Source of the DNA: Gammaproteobacteria bacterium
GTDB taxonomy: Bacteria; Pseudomonadota; Gammaproteobacteria; UBA6429; Thiohalophilaceae
Assembly (NCBI GenBank): GCA_016194635.1
Contig: JACQBC010000030.1
Coordinates: 248,001 to 312,000 of the forward strand
Reading direction: 5' to 3'
Length of the DNA: 64,000 nucleotides
Below are positions 11,658 to 29,331 of the stretch, one piece after another (within the stretch, counting starts at the first letter, position 1; each line of letters begins with the position of its first letter). Below the pieces are notes generated by a model that was given only the letters and a program-made list of their open reading frames with translations, was not told where the DNA came from and did not search any database. A program made the translations under genes and the position numbers.

Positions 11658-12926
11658 TTAGGTACGTATCTGCCCATCACCGATCACAATGTATTTTTGC
11701 GAGGTTAAACCTTCTAAACCGACCGGGCCGCGTACGTGGATCTTGTCGGTGCTAATACCGATCTCCGCGCCCAAACCATATTCATAACCGTCGGCAAACC
11801 GCGTCGAGACATTAAGCATCACCGAACTGGAATCAACCTCGCGCAAGAAACGCTGTGCCCGCGAGACATCTTCGGTGACGATCGCATCGGTATGTTGCGA
11901 ACCGTGACGCTGGATATGTTCAATCGCTGCGTCCAGCCCATCCACGATTTTGATCGCCAATATCGGTGCCAGGTATTCGGTATTCCAATCTTCTTCGCTC
12001 GCCGTCTGGATATCCGTCAAGATAGCCCGGGTGCGGACACAACCGCGTAATTCGACGCCTTTGGCGCGGTATTGCGCGGCGAGAATCGGCAGTACTTGTT
12101 GTGCCACGGTACTATCCACTAACAAAGTTTCCATGGTATTACAGGTGCCGTAGCGTTGGGTCTTGGCATTGAAGGCGATACGTACAGCCTTCTCCAGATC
12201 GGCCTTGCCATCGATATACACATGGCAGATCCCGTGCAGGTGTTTGATCACCGGGACACGCGCCTCGGCGCTGATCCGCTCGATCAGCCCTTTCCCGCCG
12301 CGCGGGACGATGACATCCACATACTGCGGCATAGTGATCAGCTGGCCAACGGCGGCGCGATCGGTGGTCTGCACGACTTGCACCGCGGTAGCGGGTAAAC
12401 CCACCGCGGTTAAACCCGCCTGAATACACGTCGCCAAGGCTTGATTGGAATGCAGCGCTTCTGAGCCGCCCCGCAAGATAGCGGCATTGCCGGATTTTAA
12501 ACATAAGACTGCCGCGTCGATGGTGACGTTGGGGCGTGATTCGTAAATAATCCCAACCACTCCAAGGGGTACCCGCATTTTTCCGATCTGGATACCGGAG
12601 GGTTGATATTTTAGATCGGCGATTGCGCCTACCGGATCAGGCAAGGCCAGCACTTGACGTACCCCATCGACCATGGCGGTGATGCGCGCCTCATTGAGTT
12701 CGAGGCGATCTAACAAGGCGGCATCCACGTTTTGCTCACGCGCCGCGGCGAGATCTTTCCGATTGGCCATTAATAGTTGCGGACGTTGCTGTTCAAGGGT
12801 TGCGGCGATCGCGGCCAAGGCCGCGTTTTTATCCTTAGTGGCCAGGCGCGCCAACACGCGCGAGGCAGCACGGGCCTGTTGTCCCAGCTCGGTCATGTAA
12901 TGTTTGATATCGACTGTCATATCCAT
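11658..12926 (-). CDS. proA: Gamma-glutamyl phosphate reductase ProA
   Basis: A 422-residue member of the aldehyde dehydrogenase superfamily that reduces gamma-glutamyl phosphate to glutamate semialdehyde in proline synthesis. The catalytic cysteine is in [33 protein letters not shown] is the conserved substrate/NADPH region, and the protein ends in the usual [17 protein letters not shown]. No proB is nearby, so ProB must be encoded elsewhere. Starts at residue 3 (MTVDIKHY) or 11 are also possible. Confidence 0.95.
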
Positions 12927-12953
12927 TTTTTTACCCCCTCGAACACCTGCCTG

Positions 12954-13979
12954 CTAGCCTGTAAAGCGTAACGCAGGAACGCCCGCAAGCCCAAGGGTTA
13001 ATTTTAACAATTCATCCCAGGCCCGGCCGCTGGCTTGTCCCTTAATAACCCGATCGACATGGGCGCATTGGCATAAATAGCCTTGCCAATCAGTCACTTT
13101 GGTCCGTTTTAAGGCTGCTCGCAGCAGGGGCTTACGTTTTTCCCAGATCGATTCGTGGGTCAGGATTTGCTCCACCGTATCCCCCTTGGCCTGGTGCTCG
13201 GCCAGCCGCGCCAAGGTGCGCACCTCGCGCGCCAAAGCCCAGAGGATCAATACCGGATCAACCCCTTCTGACTTTAACCCAAACAAGATACGGGTAGCCC
13301 GCGCGCCGTCACCACCCAGGGCTTCGTCGCTCAAGCTAAACAGGTCAAAACGCGCACTGTCCGCTACCGCCGCACACACTTGCTCGGCCGTCAGCGTGAC
13401 CGCGCCCCACACCAAAAATAATTTCTCGATTTCTTGCTCGGCGGCTAATAAATTACCTTCGACGTGATCGGCCAACTGCTGTAACGCCTGCGGCTGCGCC
13501 TGCATACCACGGTGTTTAAGGCGTTGCACCAGCCAGGGTATTAGACGGTTGGCCTCCAAAGGCCAAACCTGGACAACCACCCCCTGTTGTTCGATCGCGC
13601 TAAACCAGGCACTGCGTTGCTGCGCGGCTTCGAGTTTGTCACCGACAATCAGCACTAAGGTGTCAGCCAATGGGTTCGTGACCAGATGTTGCAAGACCTT
13701 GCCGGCCTCGGCGTTGGGTTTAGTCGCGCCCAAACGCAATTCTACTATTTTACGCTCGGCAAATAAGCAGAGGTTGTCGCTAGCACGTAACACCCACTGC
13801 CAATCAAAACCACGTTCAACATGCAATACCTGGCGTTCAGTGTAACCCTGTTGGTGGGCGGCACGGCGGATCCATTCGCAGGCTTGATCCCGCTGGAACG
13901 GTTCATCACCGCTGACGTAATACAAGGTTGCAAGACCCCGACGCAATTGCTCCGGCAGGGCTTCAACTCGGGTTTTCAT
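12954..13979 (-). CDS. holA: DNA polymerase III subunit delta HolA
   Basis: A 341-residue HolA protein, the clamp-loader wrench that opens the beta clamp. Recognisable segments are YYVSGDEPFQRDQACEWIR near the start and ILWALAREVRTLARL in domain II. The start [12 protein letters not shown] fits the family N terminus and overlaps lptE by 17 bp; a start four codons upstream (MRKRMK) cannot be excluded. The order leuS-lptE-holA on one strand is the common gammaproteobacterial arrangement. Confidence 0.93.
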   Translation of the reverse strand: MKTRVEALPEQLRRGLATLYYVSGDEPFQRDQACEWIRRAAHQQGYTERQVLHVERGFDWQWVLRASDNLCLFAERKIVELRLGATKPNAEAGKVLQHLVTNPLADTLVLIVGDKLEAAQQRSAWFSAIEQQGVVVQVWPLEANRLIPWLVQRLKHRGMQAQPQALQQLADHVEGNLLAAEQEIEKLFLVWGAVTLTAEQVCAAVADSARFDLFSLSDEALGGDGARATRILFGLKSEGVDPVLILWALAREVRTLARLAEHQAKGDTVEQILTHESIWEKRKPLLRAALKRTKVTDWQGYLCQCAHVDRVIKGQASGRAWDELLKLTLGLAGVPALRFTG

Positions 13980-14541
13980 GCGTTTTCTCACTTGGTGGGA
14001 GAATGTCGGGAGGCGGATGTTTTAACTCTGCATCGATACGTCGTAGCATTTGTTGCACCGCGGCGGCCACCAACGCCTTGCGCAACGTCACCTCTTCAGT
14101 ATCCTTGGCCAGTACATTATTAGGATCGAATTTATAGTCGCGCAACTGATTCACACTCTGGCGCGGCACCAAGAGGGTTCCCTTTGGATCATGCACATCA
14201 AATTCGACACTGTAAGTCAGTTCATATTCAGATGCGCGCCCTAACGCATCCACGCTCAATACCCGGCGGTTGAGTTGATCGGAAATAATCGCCAATACGG
14301 TATCGGTGGACAGCGGCGTGTCGCTTACCTTGGCCCCGGCGCGTTCCAAGCGGCGCTTGATCTCCACGTATAAATCACTGAAGACCGCCGCCCCGCTGAT
14401 ATGGGTTTGCTGCAGTACCGGTGCTATCGGCACATCACCACGCAAATGGAATCCACAGGCGCTGAGCATACTGGTTAAAACCAGAATGCTCAAACCAGGC
14501 AAGAACCCTCCTGGACGCTGCCCGCGGATCAACCGCATCAT
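13963..14541 (-). CDS. lptE: LPS-assembly lipoprotein LptE
   Basis: A 192-residue lipoprotein: the signal peptide ends in a lipobox LSAC, followed by GFHLRGD, the LptE hallmark. LptE plugs the LptD barrel and helps insert lipopolysaccharide at the outer membrane. Its start overlaps the leuS stop by 4 bases and its end overlaps holA. The C terminus is Pro-rich ([12 protein letters not shown]). Confidence 0.95.
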
Positions 14542-17126
14542 TGCACCACGATATTGACAATTTTACCGGGGACCACGATCACCTTCACGATCGCCTTGCC
14601 CGCGATAAAACGTTTGACATTGTCCTCCGCCAAGGCGGTGGACTCCACGCTAGCGCGATCCGCATCGACCGCCACGCTAATCACACTACGCAATTTACCG
14701 TTGACCTGCACCGCTATTTCGGCGTTATCACGCAGCAACGCGGTGCTATCCGCCACCGGCCACGCGACCGTTAATACAGGCTCGGCATGGCCGAGTTCCC
14801 GCCAAAGCCGGTGGCAAATATGCGGCACAATAGGCGCCAGCAATAAAACAATATTTTCCAACGCCTCGTGCGTCACGGCGCGGCCCAACTCCGTAGGATC
14901 ATTAAATTTACTCACGGCATTGAGTAATTCCATCACCGCGGCGATAGCGTTGTTAAAGGTAAAGCGTCGCCCCACCTCGTCACTGCACTTGGCAATCGTC
15001 GCATGCGTCTGACGCCGCAAACCACGTTGTGCATCGTTTAGCGAATTCAGATCCAATCCCGCCACGGGACCGCCTTGCAGGTGTTCATACACCAGCCGCC
15101 AGACGCGGCGTAAGAATCGGTTGGCACCCTCCACTCCGGCATCGGACCATTCCAGACTTTGATGCGGGGGCGAGGCAAACATGATAAACAAACGCGCCGT
15201 GTCGGCGCCGTAATGTTCGATCAAGGTCTGCGGATCAACACCATTGTTTTTCGATTTGGACATCTTTTCGATATTGCCTAAATGCACGACCTCACCGTCC
15301 GCTTTGAGCACGGCATTTTTCGCCCGGCCACGTTCATCCAGGTTGAGGTGCACCTCGGCCGGGGCAAAATAGTGTTTCTTACCCCCGGGGTCGTTTCTAT
15401 AAAACGTGGGCGCCACGACCATGCCCTGGGTTAATAAATTTGTGAACGGCTCCTTGCTGGTCACCAAACCCGCGGCACGCAGCAACTTGTGATAAAACCG
15501 CGCATACAATAAATGTAGGATCGCGTGTTCGATACCGCCAACGTATTGATCCACCGGCAACCAATAATTGGCGCGCGCATCGAGCATGCTACGGTGATTA
15601 TCCGGGCCGGTAAACCGCGCGAAATACCACGACGACTCCATAAAGGTATCGAAGGTATCGGTTTCGCGCTCGGCCGCGCCACCACACCGGGGGCATCGGG
15701 TTTTATAAAAGGAGGCAAGTTTTTTGATCGGCGAGGCGATACCGTCAAACTTCACATTTTCGGGCAATACCACCGGCAGTTGATCATCCGGTACGGTTAC
15801 CGCGCCGCACTTAACACAATTGATGATCGGAATCGGCGCTCCCCAATAACGTTGCCGCGACACGCCCCAGTCACGTAAACGGTAGGTGGTTCGGGTTTTA
15901 CCCTGCTTACGCTGTTGTAAAACATCGGCAATCGCCTTACCGGCTTGTTCCGAGGTCATCCCGGTGAATTCCCCCGAGTTAATCAATACTCCCCTATCGG
16001 TGAAGGCCTGGGTGCGTAAATCCACCTGCGCCGCATCACGAGGAGCAATCACTTGCAGCACCGGCAAGCCGTAGTGCCGAGCGAATTCCCAGTCACGTTG
16101 ATCGTGCGCCGGTACCGACATTACCGCGCCTTCGCCGTAGCCCATCAAGACAAAATTGGCGATAAAAATCGGCAACCGGTCACCGCTAAGGGGATGGATG
16201 GCCTTCAGTCCGGTATCGATACCGCGTTTTTCCAGGGTCTCAACCACCGCCGCGGCAACCCCGGTTTGCGCGCACTCACGCACAAACGCCGCCACGTTGC
16301 GGTGGCGTTGCGCGGCGTGCCGCGCCAGCGGATGTTCCGCGGCAACGGCGACATAGCTCGCACCCATCAATGTATCCGGCCGGGTGGTAAATACCTTCAA
16401 GGATTCCGAGCTGGCTTCTACCTTAAAAGCAATCTCCACTCCTTCGGATTTGCCGATCCAATTCCGCTGCATGGTGCGGACTTGCTCGGGCCAACCCGGG
16501 AGCTGATCCAATTCCTGTAATAATTCTTCCGCGTAGTCGGTAATCTTCATAAACCACTGTGGGATATCGCGCCGCTCCACCACGCTATCGCAGCGCCAAC
16601 ACTTACCGTCCACCACCTGTTCGTTGGCCAACACGGTCATATCGTGCGGGCACCAATTCACCGGCGAGGTTTTTTTATACACCAGACCCTTCTTATATAG
16701 GCGGGTGAACAGCCATTGCTCCCAGCGGTAATAAGTGGGATCACAGGTGGCGATCTCGCGCGACCAATCATATCCCAGGCCCAAGCGCTTGAGCTGGTTA
16801 CGCATGTAGGCGATATTCTCGCGGGTCCATTGGGCAGGTGGGACGTTATTTTTAATCGCGGCGTTTTCCGCCGGTAAGCCAAACGCATCCCAACCCATCG
16901 GCTGCAACACGTTTTTACCGAGCATGCGTTGATAGCGGCTGATCACATCGCCGATGGTGTAATTACGTACATGCCCCATATGCAGCTGCCCGCTGGGATA
17001 AGGGAACATCGCTAGGCAATAATATTTTTCGCGGTTAGGATCTTCATTGGCGCGATACGATTGGTGTTGTTCCCAATACGTTTGGGCCTCGCGTTCGACG
17101 GCATCGGGGACATACTGCTCTTGCAT
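14538..17126 (-). CDS. leuS: Leucyl-tRNA synthetase
   Basis: An 862-residue class I synthetase of the normal bacterial length. The HIGH motif is present as [19 protein letters not shown], the KMSKS loop as [13 protein letters not shown], and a CP1 editing domain lies between them ([16 protein letters not shown]). The zinc-binding cysteines near CPRCGG are kept. It charges tRNA-Leu in the cytosol and is the first gene of the leuS-lptE-holA block. Confidence 0.97.
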
Positions 17127-17232
17127 AAGGTTAATTCATGGGTGGATGATTGAAGACGCTAGCATACCGTAAGCCCGGACAAACGTCAGCCGGCAATGGG
17201 GGTGGTAATCGACCTGGTTATTAGCATGTATT

Positions 17233-17360
17233 GGGTTAAACCCCGTCGCGTAACTCACACGTCGGTATGACACGCATAAATACGTCCCTGTAGCTCGGTG
17301 GCGGCATCCCTGCCGCCAACGGTCATACCGACGTGTGAGTTACGCGACGGGGTTTAACCC
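17233..17360. repeat. Palindromic intergenic element A (39-bp perfect arms)
   Basis: Arms 17233-17271 and 17322-17360 are perfect reverse complements over 39 bp. They enclose a 50-base core (17272-17321) that contains an inner hairpin, GGCGGCA-tccc-TGCCGCC. The core resembles those of the elements at 34020, 51647 and 51998, but the arms are unrelated in sequence between copies. The right arm is the last coding part and stop of lnt; the left arm is its inverted copy. The core is in the plus orientation. As RNA it would form a very strong hairpin after lnt. Confidence 0.9.
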
Positions 17361-18861
17361 GACGAATCAATAGGGCCAGTCCGCTTAGCAGGAATACGCT
17401 CAACACCGGCCAGTTGCCGAAACTCACATAGGGGGTTGCGCCTTGTCGCGGCTGTACTTCGGCGGTCAGCACATCACTGACAAATTGTGGTGAGCGCTGT
17501 AACACCTTCCCGTGTTCGTCGATAATCGCCGAGATCCCATTGGTGGTGGCGCGCATCGACATGCGGCCTGTTTCCAATGCGCGCATGCGTGATATTTGTA
17601 AATGCTGGTGGGGTGCCCAGGAATTACCGTACCAAGCGTTATTACTGCCATTGACCAACAAGGTGGCCTGGGGAAGAAAATCGATCAACTCTTCGCCGAA
17701 AGCATCTTCGTAACAAATCGACGGCGCCATCGGTTGACCGGCGGCGACTAACAAGGGTTGCTGTTGGGCGCCGGCCGTGAAACTCGACATCGGCAAATCA
17801 AGGAACCCGATCAGCCCGCGTAATAGACTTTGGAGTGGAACATATTCACCAAACGGAACAAGATGGCGTTTGTTATACACCTCCTGGTGATCGCCCACTA
17901 CTAGAAGGCTACTGTAATAGGTGTGATAATCGCCGTAGGGCAAGCCGATAATTAAATCCGTAGCGTATTTATGCACCTTGCTTTTTAATAAATTGATATA
18001 GTCGGCGGGCACATCCAGCGGATAAAGTACGGTTAAGGCGTTCTCTGGCCAAATGATCAGATCACTGTCTTGCCAATAGGGTTCACTCAGGTCCACATAC
18101 GCGCGCATTTGTGCCTTGATTTTATCGGCGTCCCATTTGGTGAGTTGATCTTGATTGCCTTGCACAATCGCAACCGTGATCGGATCATCAACCGGGTAGG
18201 TCCAGGGATACTGGAGCAAACCATACCCGCCGCCCCACACCACTAACAACAACACGCCTGCCCATAGACGCAGTTTTTTAGCGCTGACCAGGATCAGAAC
18301 CAGACCCGCCGACAACGCGGTTAATAACGAGACCCCCAATACACCGGTGACCGGGGCATAGCCCCCCAGGGGTGTGTCGATTTGGCTGTAGCCTAGGTTT
18401 AACCAGGGAAATCCCGTGAATAACCAACTGCGGATCCACTCGAACAACACCCAATTGACCGGGAATATCCATCCGTAGGCCAACACCGCGCGCCACGGGG
18501 TTTGGGGTAAATAACGCAAACATACAACACTTGATACCGCTTGGGTCGCGGTAATCAATGCGAGCACGGTTACGAAAAGCGCCGTGACTAAAACCGCGAC
18601 AGGGGCGGAAGTTTCTCCGTACACGTGGATGGCGACATACACCCACGATACGCCAACCCCGAACAACCCTATGCCAAAAAGAAAACCACTACGCCAGGCT
18701 TGGCGGGGCGCTAACTCATACCATAACCAGAACATCAACGCCGGGGTAAATACCGCGATTGGGAAAACCGCCAAGGGCGCGAAGGCATAGGGTAGGGTCG
18801 CACCCAGTAATAACGCGGCGAGATCAAACCGGTTAGGAACCAACACGATTTTATTCAACAC
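17323..18861 (-). CDS. lnt: Apolipoprotein N-acyltransferase Lnt
   Basis: A 512-residue inner-membrane enzyme: about six N-terminal membrane segments, a periplasmic nitrilase-like domain and a final membrane helix. The Glu-Lys-Cys triad is visible in IWPENALTVL, YNKRHLVPFGEY and SICYEDAFGEEL. Lnt adds the third acyl chain to lipoproteins such as LptE. Its last 12 codons and stop lie inside the right arm of a palindromic element, so the extreme C terminus may have been remodelled. It overlaps corC by 11 bp. Confidence 0.95.
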   Translation of the reverse strand: MLNKIVLVPNRFDLAALLLGATLPYAFAPLAVFPIAVFTPALMFWLWYELAPRQAWRSGFLFGIGLFGVGVSWVYVAIHVYGETSAPVAVLVTALFVTVLALITATQAVSSVVCLRYLPQTPWRAVLAYGWIFPVNWVLFEWIRSWLFTGFPWLNLGYSQIDTPLGGYAPVTGVLGVSLLTALSAGLVLILVSAKKLRLWAGVLLLVVWGGGYGLLQYPWTYPVDDPITVAIVQGNQDQLTKWDADKIKAQMRAYVDLSEPYWQDSDLIIWPENALTVLYPLDVPADYINLLKSKVHKYATDLIIGLPYGDYHTYYSSLLVVGDHQEVYNKRHLVPFGEYVPLQSLLRGLIGFLDLPMSSFTAGAQQQPLLVAAGQPMAPSICYEDAFGEELIDFLPQATLLVNGSNNAWYGNSWAPHQHLQISRMRALETGRMSMRATTNGISAIIDEHGKVLQRSPQFVSDVLTAEVQPRQGATPYVSFGNWPVLSVFLLSGLALLIRRVKPRRVTHTSV

Positions 18862-19759
18862 GATCCGTCATTCCGCCGTCTTCGATCAGTTCGGAGGGCG
18901 CACGACGTTTAACTCTCAATAGGTAAATGCGTCGGCTATCGGCGCGTAAGATCCGGAATTGGAAACCACTTAATTCCACAACTTCCCCGCGTTTGGGTAA
19001 ATGCCCCAGTGAACTCATGATCAAGCCACCCACCGTGTCATACTCCTCATCGCTGAACTGGGTGGAGAAATGCCGGTTAAATTCCTCAATCGGCGTTATG
19101 GCCTTGATGGTCGCGTCGCTGCCACTGTGTTCCATAATATAAATTTCATCTTCAAAATCGTGTTCGTCCGCGATTTCGCCGACGATTTGTTCTAAGACAT
19201 CTTCGATCGTGACCAAACCCGCCACTCCGCCGTATTCATCCACCACCATGGCGATGTGATTACGGCTGGAGCGAAATTCCTTAAGTAATACATTTAGGCG
19301 TTTGCTTTCGGGGATGAATACCGCCGGCCGGAGGATTTCGCGTAAATTAAACTTCGCCTCGTCATCGCCGCGAAAATACGGTAACAAATCCTTAGCTAAT
19401 AAGATACCGATAACCTCGTCGCGGCCCTCGCCGATGGCAGGAAAACGCGAGTGTTGCGAATCCACCACCAGCGGCAAAATGTCTTGCAGGCTCATATCAC
19501 GTTCAACCACGACCATTTGCGAACGCGGCACCATGATGTCACGCACTTGCATTTCGGATACTTGTAGTACCCCTTCGATCATCGCCAGGGAATCAAAATC
19601 GATGACGTCATTACCGCGCGCTTCGCGCAGCAATTCAACCAGCTGGGCGCGATCGCGCGGTTCAATTTGCAAAAACTGGCTCAAGCGATCCAACCAACTA
19701 CGCTGGGTCTTCTGCTCCTTGTCGGTATCCTCGAGGGTATTGATCCGTTCATCATTCAT
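18851..19759 (-). CDS. corC: HlyC/CorC family CBS-domain protein
   Basis: About 302 residues with two CBS domains and a C-terminal transporter-associated (CorC_HlyC) domain. Typical segments are [17 protein letters not shown] and [20 protein letters not shown]. No membrane segment is present, which fits the cytosolic CorC (YbeX) type linked to Mg2+/Co2+ tolerance and recently to ribosome biogenesis. The start [13 protein letters not shown] overlaps the ybeY stop by 8 bp; a start ten codons earlier would overlap further. Order ybeY-corC-lnt is conserved. Confidence 0.93.
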
Positions 19760-22757: not shown

Positions 22758-22787
22758 AAAACAAAAGAGGCCGCATATAGCGACCTC
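22758..22787 (-). terminator. Intrinsic terminator of the tracrRNA
   Basis: On the minus strand GAGGTCGC, loop of 5, GCGGCCTC (one G-U pair) is followed by TTTTGTTTT. This 8-bp hairpin plus T-run is a standard Rho-independent terminator. It lies where a tracrRNA should end and separates it from miaB downstream. Confidence 0.85.
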
Positions 22788-22847
22788 ACATTTTGTGCAT
22801 CTTTCAGCTTGTTAGCGGACAGAGCCCATATCTCAATAAAGTATATG
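22758..22847 (-). ncRNA. tracrRNA of the type II-C CRISPR system
   Basis: The stretch at about 22812-22847 is an anti-repeat. Read on the minus strand it pairs with about 30 of the 36 repeat bases, with four small mismatches or bulges and a few G-U pairs; the core ATTGAGATATG matches the repeat exactly. Downstream come a small CACA-AAA-TGTG hairpin (nexus position) and an intrinsic terminator. The expected RNA is about 90 nt. It is transcribed away from cas9 from a strong promoter. It pairs with crRNA, recruits RNase III and forms the Cas9 guide scaffold. Exact 5' and 3' ends are inferred. Confidence 0.88.
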
Positions 22848-22853
22848 GGTTCT

Positions 22854-22882
22854 ATACTATTAAGCGCTAGGACAGATGTCAA
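22854..22882 (-). promoter_or_regulatory. Sigma-70-type promoter of tracrRNA
   Basis: On the minus strand a perfect -35 TTGACA (22877-22882) is followed after exactly 17 bases by TAGTAT (22854-22859, 4/6 to TATAAT). The predicted start is near 22846-22848, right at the beginning of the anti-repeat. A plus-strand TATACT (22853-22858) overlaps the same -10 and may serve cas9, though no good plus -35 is seen. Confidence 0.75.
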
Positions 22883-22897
22883 ACCCTAGGAGTAAAC

Positions 22898-25800
22898 ATG
22901 TTACCCAAAATGCGGTATCGCTTGGCACTTGATCTCGGTTCAACTTCCATTGGTTGGTGTCTTATTCGATTGAACTCCCAGCAGGAGCCTATCGCCATTA
23001 TCAGAATGGGGGTACGAATTTTTTCTGATGGACGTAACCCAAAGGATGGCACTTCATTGGCGGTCACACGCCGCAATGCACGTCAGATGCGCCGTCGACG
23101 AGATCGGTTACTCAAACGCAAGCAACGTATGTTAGAGATACTTACGAAGCTTGGTTTCTTTCCTGAGGATGAAAACCTGCGCCGCAATCTAGTCAACCTT
23201 GATCCATATATTTTACGCAAGAAAGGCTTATATGAACCCCTAACAGGGCCTGAATTTGCCCGCGCCCTGTTTCACATCAATCAGCGGCGTGGTTTTAAAA
23301 GTAATCGCAAAACTGATAAAAAAGATAATGATAGTGGCGCTTTGAAAAAAGCGATCAAAGATTTACGCGAGAAACTGTCTCAGGCACAGTGCCAGACTCT
23401 CGGCGAGTGGCTGGCCGATCGACACGAACGAGGTGAAAGCGTTCGCGCACGCCTGCGTGGCAAAACACAAAAGGACAAGGCTTACGATTTTTATGTCGAC
23501 CGAGCCATGATCGAGCATGAAGTTGACACCCTCTGGGCTAAACAAAACAATTTTAATCCGTTACTTTTTAACAATACCACCCGTGATGAACTAAAAGATG
23601 TTCTACTTCATCAAAGAGATCTGAAACCCGTCAAGCCAGGCCGTTGCACACTACTGCCGGATGAAGAACGCGCTCCCTTAGCCCTGCCAAGTACACAACG
23701 GTTTCGCATCTATCAGGAAGTAAACAATTTGCGGATACTCGACTCAGAAATGCGCGAGCAAGCGTTGTCGAAAGAACAACGCGATCAAATCGCGGCATTG
23801 TTGGAACAGCAACGCCAAGTAACTTTTACGGCGATCCGCAAGAAACTCAAACTTTCAGCAACAGTCACATTCAATTTACAGGATGTGAAACGTGATTTTC
23901 TCAAAGGAAACATAACCTCAGCGATATTAGCTAATGATAATGCCTTAGGTAACCACTGGTATGATCTTCCCAAAAGTCTGCAGGATAAGTGTGTCGAATT
24001 GCTGTTGAATGAACCCAGTGAAGAGAAACTCATCGAGTGGTTAATATCCCATACGACCGCAGATGAAGCAACGGCAAGACGGATCGCAAACATTAATCTG
24101 CCGGAAGGATATGGGAGTTTGAGCGCAGTCGCACTGCAAAAAATACTACCGGAATTAATGAAAGATGTTATTACCTACGCCGAAGCCGTTAAACGCGCGG
24201 GTTTTGTGAGTCACAGCATACTGTCCCATGCCGAAGCGACAGGCGAAATTATGGAAACTTTGCCCTATTATGCTATTCCGTTGCGTCGTCATGTTGCATT
24301 TGCTAAGGACAATCCGCGCAATAACGAAGAACGCCACGGAAAAATCGCAAATCCGACCGTACATATCGGTTTAAATGAACTCCGAAAAGTAGTCAATGCG
24401 CTGATCAAGCGTTATGGGCATCCCAGTGAAATAATCGTTGAAGTTGCCAAAGATTTGAAGGTTAGCAAAAAACTACGGGACGAAATACAGAAAGAACAAT
24501 CAGAAAATCAAAAGCGCAACCTGCTTTGGCTAGAGGATGCCTGCCGGGTATTACAAACCAACCCGGAACATCTCGATAAAAGTAAACGTCGTGAGCTGAT
24601 TCAAAAGATGCAGCTATGGCATGAATTAAATCCGAAAAACAACCTCGAACGCTGTTGCCCCTACACCGGAGAACGAATTGGTATTGAGCGGTTACTTTCG
24701 AGCGAAGTCGAAATCGAACACATCCTGCCTTACTCCAAAACATTGGATGATAGTCTTAATAATAAAACCGTATCGCTACGCCGCGCCAACCGTGACAAAG
24801 GCAACCAAACACCGTATGAAGCCTTTGGGCGGCAAGCGATACCCGGTTATGACTACCATGACATACTGCAGCGAGCCACGCTCATGCACAGAGAAAAAGC
24901 CAAGCGGTTCGCACCGGACGGGTATCAACGGTGGCTAAAGGAGGACAAAGACTTTCTTGCCCGCGCCCTCACCGATACCGCCTACTTGTCACGTATTGCC
25001 AAAGAGTATCTTGCTTTGATTTGCCCGCCTAACAAGGTACGCGCTATCCCTGGTCGCATGACCGCCTTATTGCGTGGAAAATTCGGGCTGAATCAAATGC
25101 TATCTGGCAACGAACACAAAAATCGAAACGACCATCGCCATCATGCCCTGGATGCGGCTGTGATTGGTGTCACCGATCAAGGTCTCCTGCAACGTTTTGC
25201 GAAAGCCAGCGCGAGCGCAAAAGAAAGGCACCTCGACCGACTTGTGGAAGAAATGCCATTGCCGTGGCCGAATTATCGTGAACATGTTGAACGAGCTCTG
25301 AGTCATATCATCGTGAGCCATAAACCTGATCATGGTTTTGAGGGTTCCATGTTTAAGGAAACGGCTTATGGAATTAAGCCTGACGGTTCAATAATTCAAA
25401 AGAAAAAAGAAGATGCCGAAAAAGATAGAAGTGTTAAATACATCGTACCTATCTACGAGCCCAATCAAGCAGCCCGGCACGGTACAGCAACTACCGGAGG
25501 TCCACGCCCCTACAAAGGATACGCACCAGACGGTAATTACTGCCTAGAAATAGTGGAAAACGAAACTGGAAACTGGGAAATGGAAACAATTCCGGTATTC
25601 AAGGCATACCGACTTGCACGTAATATAGGCTATGGCAAAATTTATCAAGCGCAAGTTCTTCAACAAATGATTAACACTAAGCTTTCTGAAATTCCCGGCA
25701 ATCTGATTATGAAACTCATGCCTGGTGATATTATCAGGCTTAACTACAAAGGCACGAAAAACCAGCTGCTATGTGTAGTAAAAATGAGTGTGGATGGCGG

Positions 25801-26044
25801 TGCAACATTCACTAACCTAAGTGAAGCTAATATCAGCGGCAGATATGAAGCCAGAAGAAAAGCTCGTAACCGAATTAAAAAGGAAGGCAAGACAATTGAC
25901 CAACTTGATGCAATTGAGCAAACTGCATTGAAAGATGTATTTGTTTTATCCCAGATCGGTGTAACAGAACTAAAAATGGGAAAAGCTCGCAAAATAACAG
26001 TATCTCCCATCGGTGAATTACACGACTCAGGCTTCAAGGGCTGA
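22898..26044 (+). CDS. cas9: CRISPR-associated endonuclease Cas9 (type II-C)
   Basis: A 1048-residue compact Cas9. RuvC-I has Asp12 (LALDLGSTSIGW); an Arg-rich bridge helix follows (RRNARQMRRRRDRLLKRKQR, ~59-78). RuvC-II has Glu515 (EIIVEVAKDL); HNH has His608 (EVEIEHILPYSKTLDD); RuvC-III has His749 and Asp752 (DHRHHALDAAVIG). The C-terminal ~200 residues form the PAM-interacting region. Length and motif spacing fit the Neisseria/Geobacillus-like II-C branch. The start is fixed by an AGGAG 6 bases upstream. All catalytic residues are present, so the enzyme should cut both strands. cas1 follows at 5 bases. Confidence 0.97.
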   Translation: MLPKMRYRLALDLGSTSIGWCLIRLNSQQEPIAIIRMGVRIFSDGRNPKDGTSLAVTRRNARQMRRRRDRLLKRKQRMLEILTKLGFFPEDENLRRNLVNLDPYILRKKGLYEPLTGPEFARALFHINQRRGFKSNRKTDKKDNDSGALKKAIKDLREKLSQAQCQTLGEWLADRHERGESVRARLRGKTQKDKAYDFYVDRAMIEHEVDTLWAKQNNFNPLLFNNTTRDELKDVLLHQRDLKPVKPGRCTLLPDEERAPLALPSTQRFRIYQEVNNLRILDSEMREQALSKEQRDQIAALLEQQRQVTFTAIRKKLKLSATVTFNLQDVKRDFLKGNITSAILANDNALGNHWYDLPKSLQDKCVELLLNEPSEEKLIEWLISHTTADEATARRIANINLPEGYGSLSAVALQKILPELMKDVITYAEAVKRAGFVSHSILSHAEATGEIMETLPYYAIPLRRHVAFAKDNPRNNEERHGKIANPTVHIGLNELRKVVNALIKRYGHPSEIIVEVAKDLKVSKKLRDEIQKEQSENQKRNLLWLEDACRVLQTNPEHLDKSKRRELIQKMQLWHELNPKNNLERCCPYTGERIGIERLLSSEVEIEHILPYSKTLDDSLNNKTVSLRRANRDKGNQTPYEAFGRQAIPGYDYHDILQRATLMHREKAKRFAPDGYQRWLKEDKDFLARALTDTAYLSRIAKEYLALICPPNKVRAIPGRMTALLRGKFGLNQMLSGNEHKNRNDHRHHALDAAVIGVTDQGLLQRFAKASASAKERHLDRLVEEMPLPWPNYREHVERALSHIIVSHKPDHGFEGSMFKETAYGIKPDGSIIQKKKEDAEKDRSVKYIVPIYEPNQAARHGTATTGGPRPYKGYAPDGNYCLEIVENETGNWEMETIPVFKAYRLARNIGYGKIYQAQVLQQMINTKLSEIPGNLIMKLMPGDIIRLNYKGTKNQLLCVVKMSVDGGATFTNLSEANISGRYEARRKARNRIKKEGKTIDQLDAIEQTALKDVFVLSQIGVTELKMGKARKITVSPIGELHDSGFKG

Positions 26045-26049
26045 CCTCT

Positions 26050-26979
26050 ATGATCGGCCGCATTGTCGAAGTGGCCGATGACCGGAGACATTTATTTGTC
26101 TCCAGGGGTTTCATGGTGGTGCAAGAAACCGAAGGCGAACGCAAGGAGCTCGGGCAAGTCCCTCTGGATGATATTGCCGCGGTTATCGCCCATGCACATG
26201 GTTTGAGTTACACCAATAACCTGCTGGTTGCCTTGGCGGAGCGTGGTGCACCCTTTGTATTGTGCGCAGCTAACCATAACGTGATCGGCATGCTTTGGCC
26301 GGTCGATGGGAATCACCAACAAGCCAAACGATTTGATGCACAACTTGCCGCTGGCCAACCCATGCATAAACGCCTGTGGGCAGAGGTGGTGCGTTGCAAA
26401 CTACAACAACAAGCAGCGGCATTAGAAGCGGTGGGTGCTCCCACTGCGCCACTTGCCGCACTGACGAAAAAAGTTCGTTCAGGCGATCCCGATAATCTGG
26501 AAGCCCAAGGTGCACGCCGTTATTGGAACCTTTTATTTGGTGATGATTTTCGCCGCGATCAAAACAGCGGTGGACTGAATGCCATGCTCAACTATGGCTA
26601 TACGGTGTTACGTGCAGCTACTGCACGCGCCGTGGTTGCTGCTGGCCTGCATCCCACGCTTGGGCTACATCATTCCAACGAAGGTAATCCAATGAGGTTG
26701 GTTGACGATTTAATGGAACCCTTTCGTCCCATCATCGATTTACATGTTTGGCAATTACAACGCCTCGGTGAAACCGAAATTACACAGGATACCAAGCGCT
26801 CGTTGGTTCGTACTTTATATAACGACATGCAAAGCAGCTCTGGCGCAACTCCGGTAATGGTCTGTATGCAACGACTGGCCGTTTCGTTGGCTCAGGTCTA
26901 TCTTGGTGAGCGCGATAAACTTGATCTACCCCTGCCAGGATTGCCCTTATCCATAGCGGCAAGCCTAACCGATGAATGA
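26050..26979 (+). CDS. cas1: CRISPR integrase Cas1 (type II)
   Basis: A 309-residue type II Cas1. The metal-binding residues appear in NLEAQGARRYWNLLFG (Glu), LGLHHSNEGNPMRLVDDLMEPFRP (His, then Asp/Glu). With Cas2 it integrates new spacers at the leader end of the array. It lies 5 bases after cas9 and 6 bases before cas2, so the three form one operon. No csn2 or cas4 is present, which defines subtype II-C. Confidence 0.96.
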   Translation: MIGRIVEVADDRRHLFVSRGFMVVQETEGERKELGQVPLDDIAAVIAHAHGLSYTNNLLVALAERGAPFVLCAANHNVIGMLWPVDGNHQQAKRFDAQLAAGQPMHKRLWAEVVRCKLQQQAAALEAVGAPTAPLAALTKKVRSGDPDNLEAQGARRYWNLLFGDDFRRDQNSGGLNAMLNYGYTVLRAATARAVVAAGLHPTLGLHHSNEGNPMRLVDDLMEPFRPIIDLHVWQLQRLGETEITQDTKRSLVRTLYNDMQSSSGATPVMVCMQRLAVSLAQVYLGERDKLDLPLPGLPLSIAASLTDE

Positions 26980-26985
26980 TTTGCC

Positions 26986-27312
26986 ATGCTCAGTGGTTAC
27001 CGTCTGATGTGGGTCGCTATTATGTTCGATCTACCGGTTGTGGAGAAAAAGGAACGCAAAGCAGCTACTGACTTTCGTAAGACATTACTGGATATGGGTT
27101 TCGAGATGGCGCAATTTTCCGTCTACATGCGATTTTGCACCAGCCAGACTCAAATCGATACCTACTGTAAACGTGTCGAAGTGGCCTTGCCAGAAGGTGG
27201 AAAAGTCAATATCCTGACTTTTACGGACAAACAATATGAACGAATCATTTCCTACCGAGGCAAGGCGAAACAGGCCGCAAAAAAATCACCAAGCCAATTT
27301 GAATTATTCTAG
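26986..27312 (+). CDS. cas2: CRISPR adaptation protein Cas2
   Basis: A 108-residue Cas2 with the beta1 Asp in WVAIMFDLPV and the conserved FSVYMRFC segment of type II Cas2. It forms the dimeric core of the Cas1-Cas2 integrase. The C terminus is Lys-rich (KQAAKKSPSQFELF). The stop lies 69 bases before the first repeat, so the leader starts directly after it. Confidence 0.95.
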   Translation: MLSGYRLMWVAIMFDLPVVEKKERKAATDFRKTLLDMGFEMAQFSVYMRFCTSQTQIDTYCKRVEVALPEGGKVNILTFTDKQYERIISYRGKAKQAAKKSPSQFELF

Positions 27313-27381
27313 AATGTTAGCCATTTTTCATCTGTCGAAAGGCGAGAACCCACTGAGTTATCAGTGGGTTATACCAATCAG
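27313..27381 (+). promoter_or_regulatory. CRISPR leader with perfect palindrome
   Basis: The 69 bases between cas2 and the first repeat. It holds a perfect 10-bp inverted repeat, AACCCACTGA (27347-27356) and TCAGTGGGTT (27361-27370), separated by GTTA and ending 11 bases before repeat 1. This side is called the leader because the opposite end of the array carries degenerate repeats. The palindrome could be an integrase recognition site or a hairpin that ends a transcript; the sequence does not decide. Confidence 0.7.
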
Positions 27382-29331
27382 AGTATACATCATTGAGATA
27401 TGAGCACTGTCCGGAACGGCCAGCTTGTCCTCAACATAGGCCGCGAAAGTATACATCATTGAGATATGAGCACTGTCCGGAACGGAAAAAACTATCAGTG
27501 GCGACGAGCTGCGAGTATACATCATTGAGATATGAGCACTGTCCGGAACACGTTGGTTACAACATCGGTTTGATCAACAAGTATACATCATTGAGATATG
27601 AGCACTGTCCGGAACACGTAGCTCAAGTGCTGGGGCAGGATATCTAGTATACATCATTGAGATATGAGCACTGTCCGGAACTAACAGGTGTACGCACTGT
27701 AACACTAGGCTAGTATACATCATTGAGATATGAGCACTGTCCGGAACTATTGTATATACTCATGGCATGTATAGGAGAGTATACATCATTGAGATATGAG
27801 CACTGTCCGGAACTGCCATATACTTTACTCTCCACTTGTTTAAAGTATACATCATTGAGATATGAGCACTGTCCGGAACTAAATCACCTCTCTCATCTTT
27901 TGCATTACCAGTATACATCATTGAGATATGAGCACTGTCCGGAACCGTAAACAAATTGTTCAAAACTTTTATAGGAGTATACATCATTGAGATATGAGCA
28001 CTGTCCGGAACCGGACCGGATTGCAATAATAAAATCTGCAGAGTATACATCATTGAGATATGAGCACTGTCCGGAACACAGGAATATTTAACAACGCCAA
28101 TGTATCAAGTATACATCATTGAGATATGAGCACTGTCCGGAACCCATATGATGCGTTTCTAGAGTTTGGGCTAAGTATACATCATTGAGATATGAGCACT
28201 GTCCGGAACAGCCTAAGCCATGTCGAGAAGTTTAATAGAAGTATACATCATTGAGATATGAGCACTGTCCGGAACCATTCCATGCTTCTCATGCCCATAC
28301 CATGCAGTATACATCATTGAGATATGAGCACTGTCCGGAACTCCGTCAAGGGATATATTTTTTTGCCTAATAGTATACATCATTGAGATATGAGCACTGT
28401 CCGGAACTGGACCCAGAAGCACACGCAGCGGTTGCGCAGTATACATCATTGAGATATGAGCACTGTCCGGAACAACCGTGGTTATTGGGAAGAATGTCTA
28501 GTGAGTATACATCATTGAGATATGAGCACTGTCCGGAACTCGCTGAACTTGATCTTGCTGGTATTGCCCAGTATACATCATTGAGATATGAGCACTGTCC
28601 GGAACCTGTGATTTATCCGGCACCGCACGCGCCGAAGTATACATCATTGAGATATGAGCACTGTCCGGAACGTCACGGTTCCGGTGATGATGACGGTTCC
28701 GAGTATACATCATTGAGATATGAGCACTGTCCGGAACTAACCGGTGTACGCACTGTAACACTGGGTTAGTATACATCATTGAGATATGAGCACTGTCCGG
28801 AACATAACGCGATGGTTTTTTACGATCGAATTTAGTATACATCATTGAGATATGAGCACTGTCCGGAACGGAAAATTCGCATCGCTGTATGATGCGGCGA
28901 GTATACATCATTGAGATATGAGCACTGTCCGGAACGTCGGCCGCCTCTCCCGCGCTAAAGATCGCAGTATACATCATTGAGATATGAGCACTGTCCGGAA
29001 CGCTGGCTCGAGCATCGGCCAACCGCGCAATAGTATACATCATTGAGATATGAGCACTGTCCGGAACCGCAGTATTCCAATCACGCGGCCGACGTCTAGT
29101 ATACATCATTGAGATATGAGCACTGTCCGGAACGGCGGCGATGAGGTGATCGCGTGGGCGCGCAGTATACATCATTGAGATATGAGCACTGTCCGGAACC
29201 ACTTCGTCAATCCCGGCGCTCACGGCATCAGTATACATCATTGAGATATGAGCACTGTCCGGAACATTTCCTCGACTTTGCTTTTGATATCAAACAGTAT
29301 ACATCATTGAGATATAAGCACTGTCCAGAAC
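27382..29331 (-). CRISPR. Type II-C CRISPR array, 30 repeats and 29 spacers
   Basis: A 36-bp repeat recurs with a strict 66-bp period, giving 30-bp spacers throughout; (29296-27382)/66 = 29 spacers. On plus the repeat begins AGTATACATCATTGAGATAT and ends GCACTGTCCGGAAC. The crRNA sense is inferred to be minus, where it begins GTTCCGGACAG like other type II repeats and pairs with the tracrRNA. The last repeat (29296-29331) has two substitutions (ATAAGC and CCAGAAC), marking the old end. In crRNA sense each repeat ends in TATACT, at the same place as the repeat-internal -10 box of Neisseria meningitidis. Spacers 5 and 21 are near-duplicates. Confidence 0.98.

Follow-up and report, generated by a model that had tools for sequence, protein, structure and literature searches.

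A structurally intact type II-C CRISPR-Cas9 locus with two self-matching spacers in a gammaproteobacterial genome

The locus described here raises the question of whether a CRISPR-Cas system that has all of its parts in place can be taken to be active when two of its spacers match genes of its own host perfectly. It lies in a window of 64,000 nucleotides (i.e. the whole stretch of DNA that was analysed) from a gammaproteobacterial genome assembly, and the original prediction described it as a complete, apparently active type II-C locus. We analysed its genes, RNAs, array and spacer targets, and compared them with those of about 40 related loci that have the same architecture.

Components of the locus

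The locus comprises the following features:

22758..22847, minus strand: tracrRNA (anti-repeat, nexus CGCTAACAAGCTGAAAGATGCAC and terminator hairpin at 22787-22767; fold z -3.9)
22854..22882, minus strand: promoter boxes of the tracrRNA, TTGACA-N17-TAGTAT
22898..26044, plus strand: cas9, 1048 aa, type II-C
26050..26979, plus strand: cas1, 309 aa, type II (NMENI), with motifs EAQGARRYW, LHHSNEGN and DLMEPFRP
26986..27312, plus strand: cas2, 108 aa
27313..27381, no strand assigned: leader, 69 bp
27382..29331, minus strand (crRNA sense): CRISPR array, 30 repeats of 36 bp and 29 spacers of 30 bp

The locus is complete, as predicted: cas9, cas1 and cas2 are open, and the array and tracrRNA are present. 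The NCBIfam, Pfam and PADLOC profiles identified Cas9 (4e-188), a type II Cas1 (3e-71) and Cas2 (2e-17), and the close spacing claimed for the three genes agrees exactly with their coordinates (5 bases between cas9 and cas1, 6 between cas1 and cas2). The leader and array follow directly after cas2, with csn2 and cas4 absent from the operon as in subtype II-C, and there is no further coding ORF from the tracrRNA to the array. As in other type II systems, cas9 encodes RuvC and HNH nuclease domains and the anti-repeat of the tracrRNA is complementary to the repeat. Six catalytic positions of Cas9 were checked (D12, E515, H608, N631, H749 and D752); all are invariant or nearly so across 49 aligned Cas9 sequences, so that the RuvC and HNH catalytic residues are intact, as had been claimed. 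The protein had been singled out for having only 1048 amino acids, but this length is usual for II-C, where relatives are mostly 1013-1069 aa. Chance origin of the features of the locus is excluded, and we are highly confident that together they form a structurally intact, complete type II-C CRISPR-Cas9 immune system of the orthodox kind. As a system it is one additional intact II-C locus.

The tracrRNA had been predicted to have both a promoter and a terminator, and both were located on the minus strand (TTGACA-17-TAGTAT at 22882-22854 and the hairpin at 22787-22767); zero occurrences of this promoter are expected by chance in the window, and the 5' end of the transcript would lie near 22847. 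An Rfam search gave no match. Of 49 relatives, 47 have the same RNA on this side of cas9, and its distance to cas9 ranges from 44 to 348. The window anti-repeat scores 22 with its own repeat and at most 20 with the repeats of relatives, and across the clade mean pairing is 22.5 with the own repeat versus 16.0 with others (0 of 5000 permutations). This better pairing of each tracrRNA with its own repeat is evidence that functional pairing has been maintained.

Comparison along the length of Cas9 gave two different sets of nearest relatives. Residues 1 to ~800 are nearest to the Cas9s of loci L013, L049 and L011, and most 60-residue windows up to that point are 60-85% identical to those of L013, L049, L011, L010 and L009; past residue ~800, identity to these five falls to 29-32%. 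The PAM-interacting end (residues 805-1048) is instead nearest to G026, L057 and L053, with 59-64% identity over the whole C-terminal part. By these alignments Cas9 is a mosaic, whose PAM-interacting part was exchanged somewhere within the clade. Exchange of this domain is known among close II-C Cas9s, i.e. Nme1, Nme2 and Nme3. Its best matches among solved structures were Cas9 chains of ~1055-1095 aa, including the II-C enzymes Nme1Cas9 (6jdv) and HpaCas9 (8hnt); the top match scored 244 bits (a 1082-aa chain), and solved Cas9s align over separate stretches only. The predicted fold of the PAM-interacting end (pLDDT 76, with the first 100 residues weak) matched only general Cas9 C-terminal regions. 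A Cas9 whose PAM-interacting end is swapped relative to its nearest body relatives is a testable point.

Transcription and growth of the array

The array has a strict period of 66 bp, and its sequence bears out the prediction of 30 near-identical repeats and constant 30-base spacers: 29 of the 30 repeats are identical, all 29 spacers are 30 bp, and the last repeat carries two changes.

29296..29331, minus strand: terminal, oldest repeat, changed at crRNA-sense repeat positions 5 and 16

The repeat sequence occurs nowhere else in the 3.7-Mb genome. In the crRNA sense every window repeat ends in the -10 box TATACT, and the T, A, A and T of the repeat 3' end TAnA[C/A]T are invariant in 41 of 41 loci. 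From this conservation the crRNA promoters are predicted to lie inside the repeats, as is characteristic of II-C, and together with the minus-strand anti-repeat and tracrRNA the -10 boxes indicate that the guide RNAs run towards cas2. Among 30 complete arrays the terminal repeat is mutated at the cas-distal end in 18 and at the cas2-proximal end in none, which indicates that the array grows at its cas2 end. This is indirect evidence that spacers are acquired at the transcriptional 3' end, a further II-C characteristic. Published II-C systems likewise grow at the 3' end and are transcribed towards the variable end (PMC12638026, PMC8092290, PMC12080349, PMC6008519), and the reported frequency of mutated extra repeats in II-C (60%; PMC12080349) agrees with the 18 of 30 found here.

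Transcription of the array in the opposite direction, with plus-strand transcripts starting at the leader as they do in II-A, would suit the position of the leader, which adjoins cas2 where new spacers are inserted. However, the anti-repeat, its terminator and its promoter are all on the minus strand, the repeat -10 boxes point to minus-strand transcription, most relatives have a T-run after the leader stem-loop in the minus sense, and published II-C arrays are transcribed towards the variable end (PMC8092290, PMC12080349). We consider plus-strand transcription to have almost no chance of being correct.

With minus-strand transcription, the system would work as follows. The -10 element in each repeat would drive crRNA synthesis on the minus strand towards cas2, and the separately transcribed tracrRNA would pair with the repeat part of the crRNA; Cas9 would then cut spacer-matching DNA bearing the right PAM. 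Cas1-Cas2 would add spacers at the cas2-proximal repeat, beside the ~70-bp leader, and the oldest, mutated repeat would be left at the far end. The predicted leader is thus present, but on the 3' side of the array in the sense of transcription and not upstream of it. The mean G+C of the spacers (window positions 27418-29295) also shifts along the array, from 38% for spacers 5-15 to 56% for spacers 16-29, as if the invader pool had changed.

Across 41 loci, the cas2 stop codon and the first repeat are 65-71 nt apart, and 37 of these loci fall within 69-71 nt. Two elements were recognised in this leader:

27347..27370, minus strand: conserved stem-loop with covarying pairs, AACCCACTGA-TAAC-TCAGTGGGTT, 11 nt beyond the repeat that is transcribed last
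27362..27371, minus strand: leader motif NAA[CG]N4TG, +11 to +20 from the repeat

Six of the ten stem pairs have changes on both sides, counted in a fixed frame that 33 of 41 sequences entered (the frame was used because a free stem search misplaced the hairpin in L010, L018, L026 and L030; L018 and L026 fit it), and the covariation score is 0.368, whereas shuffles give 0.141 and sliding the frame gives 0.138 at most. In most loci the stem-loop is followed in the crRNA sense by a T-run and so resembles a terminator; in the window the T-run is weak. The motif, which was defined post hoc on the same data set, is placed at precisely +11 in 43 of 44 close loci and, among 12 distant II-C loci whose Cas9s are ~32-47% identical across the matched region, in 11, as against 1 of 30 control flanks. 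The distant loci have leaders of ~32-71 nt, some without an evident stem-loop; all 12 keep A12 and A13, 11 keep T19, and the bases from the repeat to the motif are near random except at position 6.

The stem-loop and motif may serve to anchor Cas1-Cas2, to terminate transcripts from the orphan promoter that the newest repeat carries, or to do both. That the motif is kept even in distant loci without an evident stem-loop argues for the anchor, in which case ten variable bases (one helical turn) would follow the newest repeat before NAA[CG]N4TG is reached. In the close clade, transcripts initiated at this orphan promoter would end at the hairpin and not reach cas2. We put forward only tentatively, as possible rather than probable, the combined proposal that the motif fixed at +11 anchors Cas1-Cas2 and that the close-clade hairpin there also stops transcription antisense into cas2. 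If true, a leader element set at a fixed spacing from the point of integration would be a defined, mutable II-C adaptation signal, in a subtype whose adaptation is poorly understood relative to I-E and II-A. Literature searches of open-licence papers found no report of the motif, and the leader element is the only part of the locus that might be new.

Spacer targets and the activity of the system

Targets could be identified for spacers 13, 16 and 17 only, and two further spacers proved to be variants of each other:

27682..27711, minus strand: spacer 5, 27/30 identical to spacer 21
28210..28239, minus strand: spacer 13, 30/30 self-match in a chemoreceptor (methyl-accepting chemotaxis protein, MCP) gene on contig C19
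28408..28437, minus strand: spacer 16, matching traD of integrative/conjugative elements at 29, 28, 27 and 27 of 30 positions
28474..28503, minus strand: spacer 17, 30/30 self-match in a PAS-GGDEF (diguanylate cyclase) gene on contig C8
28738..28767, minus strand: spacer 21, variant of spacer 5

The search of the spacers against phages and plasmids that had been proposed as a route to the PAM was only partly productive. The traD matches of spacer 16 come from three genomes and one Pantoea plasmid; the plasmid match is weak alone (E = 4) and is credible only with the three independent genomes. In all four elements the 11 bases nearest the PAM side are unchanged and the flank RCGAAA is conserved. 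One spacer therefore matches an invader, and as its target is traD of a conjugative element, real invaders are represented in the memory of the array. No significant phage match was found in the phage and plasmid collections, and IMG/VR scans, which used a degenerate pattern at the protein level and segments of spacers 1, 16 and 5/21, gave no credible match. Their single protein match was unrelated, at 10-11 mismatches. A match of spacer 1 to a uvrD-like gene of a distant species (G777) was also rejected, because its per-genome E predicts about one chance match in 399 genomes. The spacers of the three relatives that have the same PAM-interacting domain gave no matches for PAM inference. A single traD site and the two self-sites do not suffice to derive a PAM, and we claim none. 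In the genome G378, a related II-C system whose Cas9 is 65% identical occurs together with the conjugative element targeted by spacer 16 (contigs C31 and C59; L105 and L136).

The three differences between spacers 5 and 21 all fall at the same codon position and are synonymous in either reading direction. Judged by this pattern, the two spacers are separate acquisitions from diverged copies of one gene, and such re-acquired variants point to adaptation over time. Similar same-register variants occur in the arrays of L017, L019, L026 and L032. The L032 array (12530-19165, at least 101 repeats) contains the near-identical same-register pairs 38/92, 40/86, 43/85 and 47/87, as if relatives of one invader had been sampled twice.

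A search of the host's own genome with all of the spacers found two perfect matches outside the array, those of spacers 13 and 17, with the flanks AGTATCCA and ATTTAATT. No prophage was evident among the ORFs neighbouring the two targets, and the three relatives with the common PAM-interacting domain have no self-matching spacers. Under acquisition at the cas2 end, 12 and 16 spacers are newer than the two self-spacers, which indicates that cells tolerated them. Such spacers would be lethal if Cas9 were fully active and the PAM good; either there is no PAM at the two targets, or interference is blocked or only weak. The simplest reason for tolerance is probably that the self-targets have no functional PAM.

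Alternatively, the system may look intact while being silenced, i.e. interference is off because it is unexpressed or blocked by an anti-CRISPR, and the self-spacers persist for that reason. Two 30/30 matches to chromosomal genes with no evident prophage, both kept through 12 and 16 newer additions, fit such silencing. However, the genes are undamaged, the repeats show no decay and later acquisitions took place; furthermore, self-spacers of Flavobacterium II-C usually lack a canonical PAM (PMC8092290), and spacers taken from host DNA are known to enter II-C arrays (PMC4283603). We consider silencing unlikely, while giving it real weight.

It has also to be considered that spacers 13 and 17 are working guides, which dampen the two host genes at the RNA level by PAM-free action of the II-C Cas9. 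Both crRNAs would be complementary to the target mRNA, both targets are signalling genes, and the Cas9s of C. jejuni and N. meningitidis are reported to target RNA independently of a PAM (review PMC6990116). This is very improbable here, however, as antisense orientation in two of two cases has a 1-in-4 chance, spacer 16 is likewise antisense to its target mRNA, and spacers 13 and 17 were not seen conserved in relatives.

Returning to self-targets that lack a functional PAM, the prediction of an apparently active system stands in a qualified form: the open genes, the pairing of the tracrRNA with its own repeat and the re-acquired spacer variants suggest that it is likely to be active, whereas the two perfect self-matches argue against unrestricted interference. 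Gene integrity, orientation, pairing, promoter boxes, leader conservation and the one conjugative-element target were read from sequence or comparison; beyond these, we infer expression and target cleavage. Perfect self-spacers kept in an intact array make tolerance of self-targeting by II-C systems testable. About 2 kb from the spacer 17 self-target on contig C8 lie a HerA gene and a complete QatABCD defence set (L067, 374-7732); the gene before HerA, of which the 3' end is present, is possibly of the SIR2 type.

Distribution and comparison with known systems

The closest Cas9 found is that of G381, at 75% identity. Within the host family the distribution is patchy: of the 36 genomes searched from the same genus or family, only G026 has such a locus, and there it occupies another genomic site, beside glutaminyl/glutamyl-tRNA synthetase genes. 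This patchy distribution and the different site in G026 point to horizontal transfer. A serine-recombinase-like gene beside the G026 II-C locus (L095, 8057-9673) is a possible transfer vehicle.

The system resembles the II-C systems of Neisseria meningitidis and Campylobacter jejuni in having cas9-cas1-cas2 only, with csn2 and cas4 absent, in its 36-bp repeats, 30-bp spacers, repeat promoters and tracrRNA, and in its acquisition at the transcriptional 3' end with a mutated oldest repeat; unlike in that type, the PAM-interacting domain of the window Cas9 comes from another branch. It is closest to the II-C systems of Betaproteobacteria and related Gammaproteobacteria (L009-L057, G026 and G381), whose Cas9s are 46-75% identical and with which it has gene order, repeat family, tracrRNA, leader length and stem-loop in common. 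Within this group it differs from L013, L049, L011, L010 and L009 in the PAM-interacting end of Cas9, which it instead has in common with G026, L057 and L053. Self-derived spacers in an intact II-C array are also found in C. jejuni, where they were gained during phage carriage (PMC4283603).
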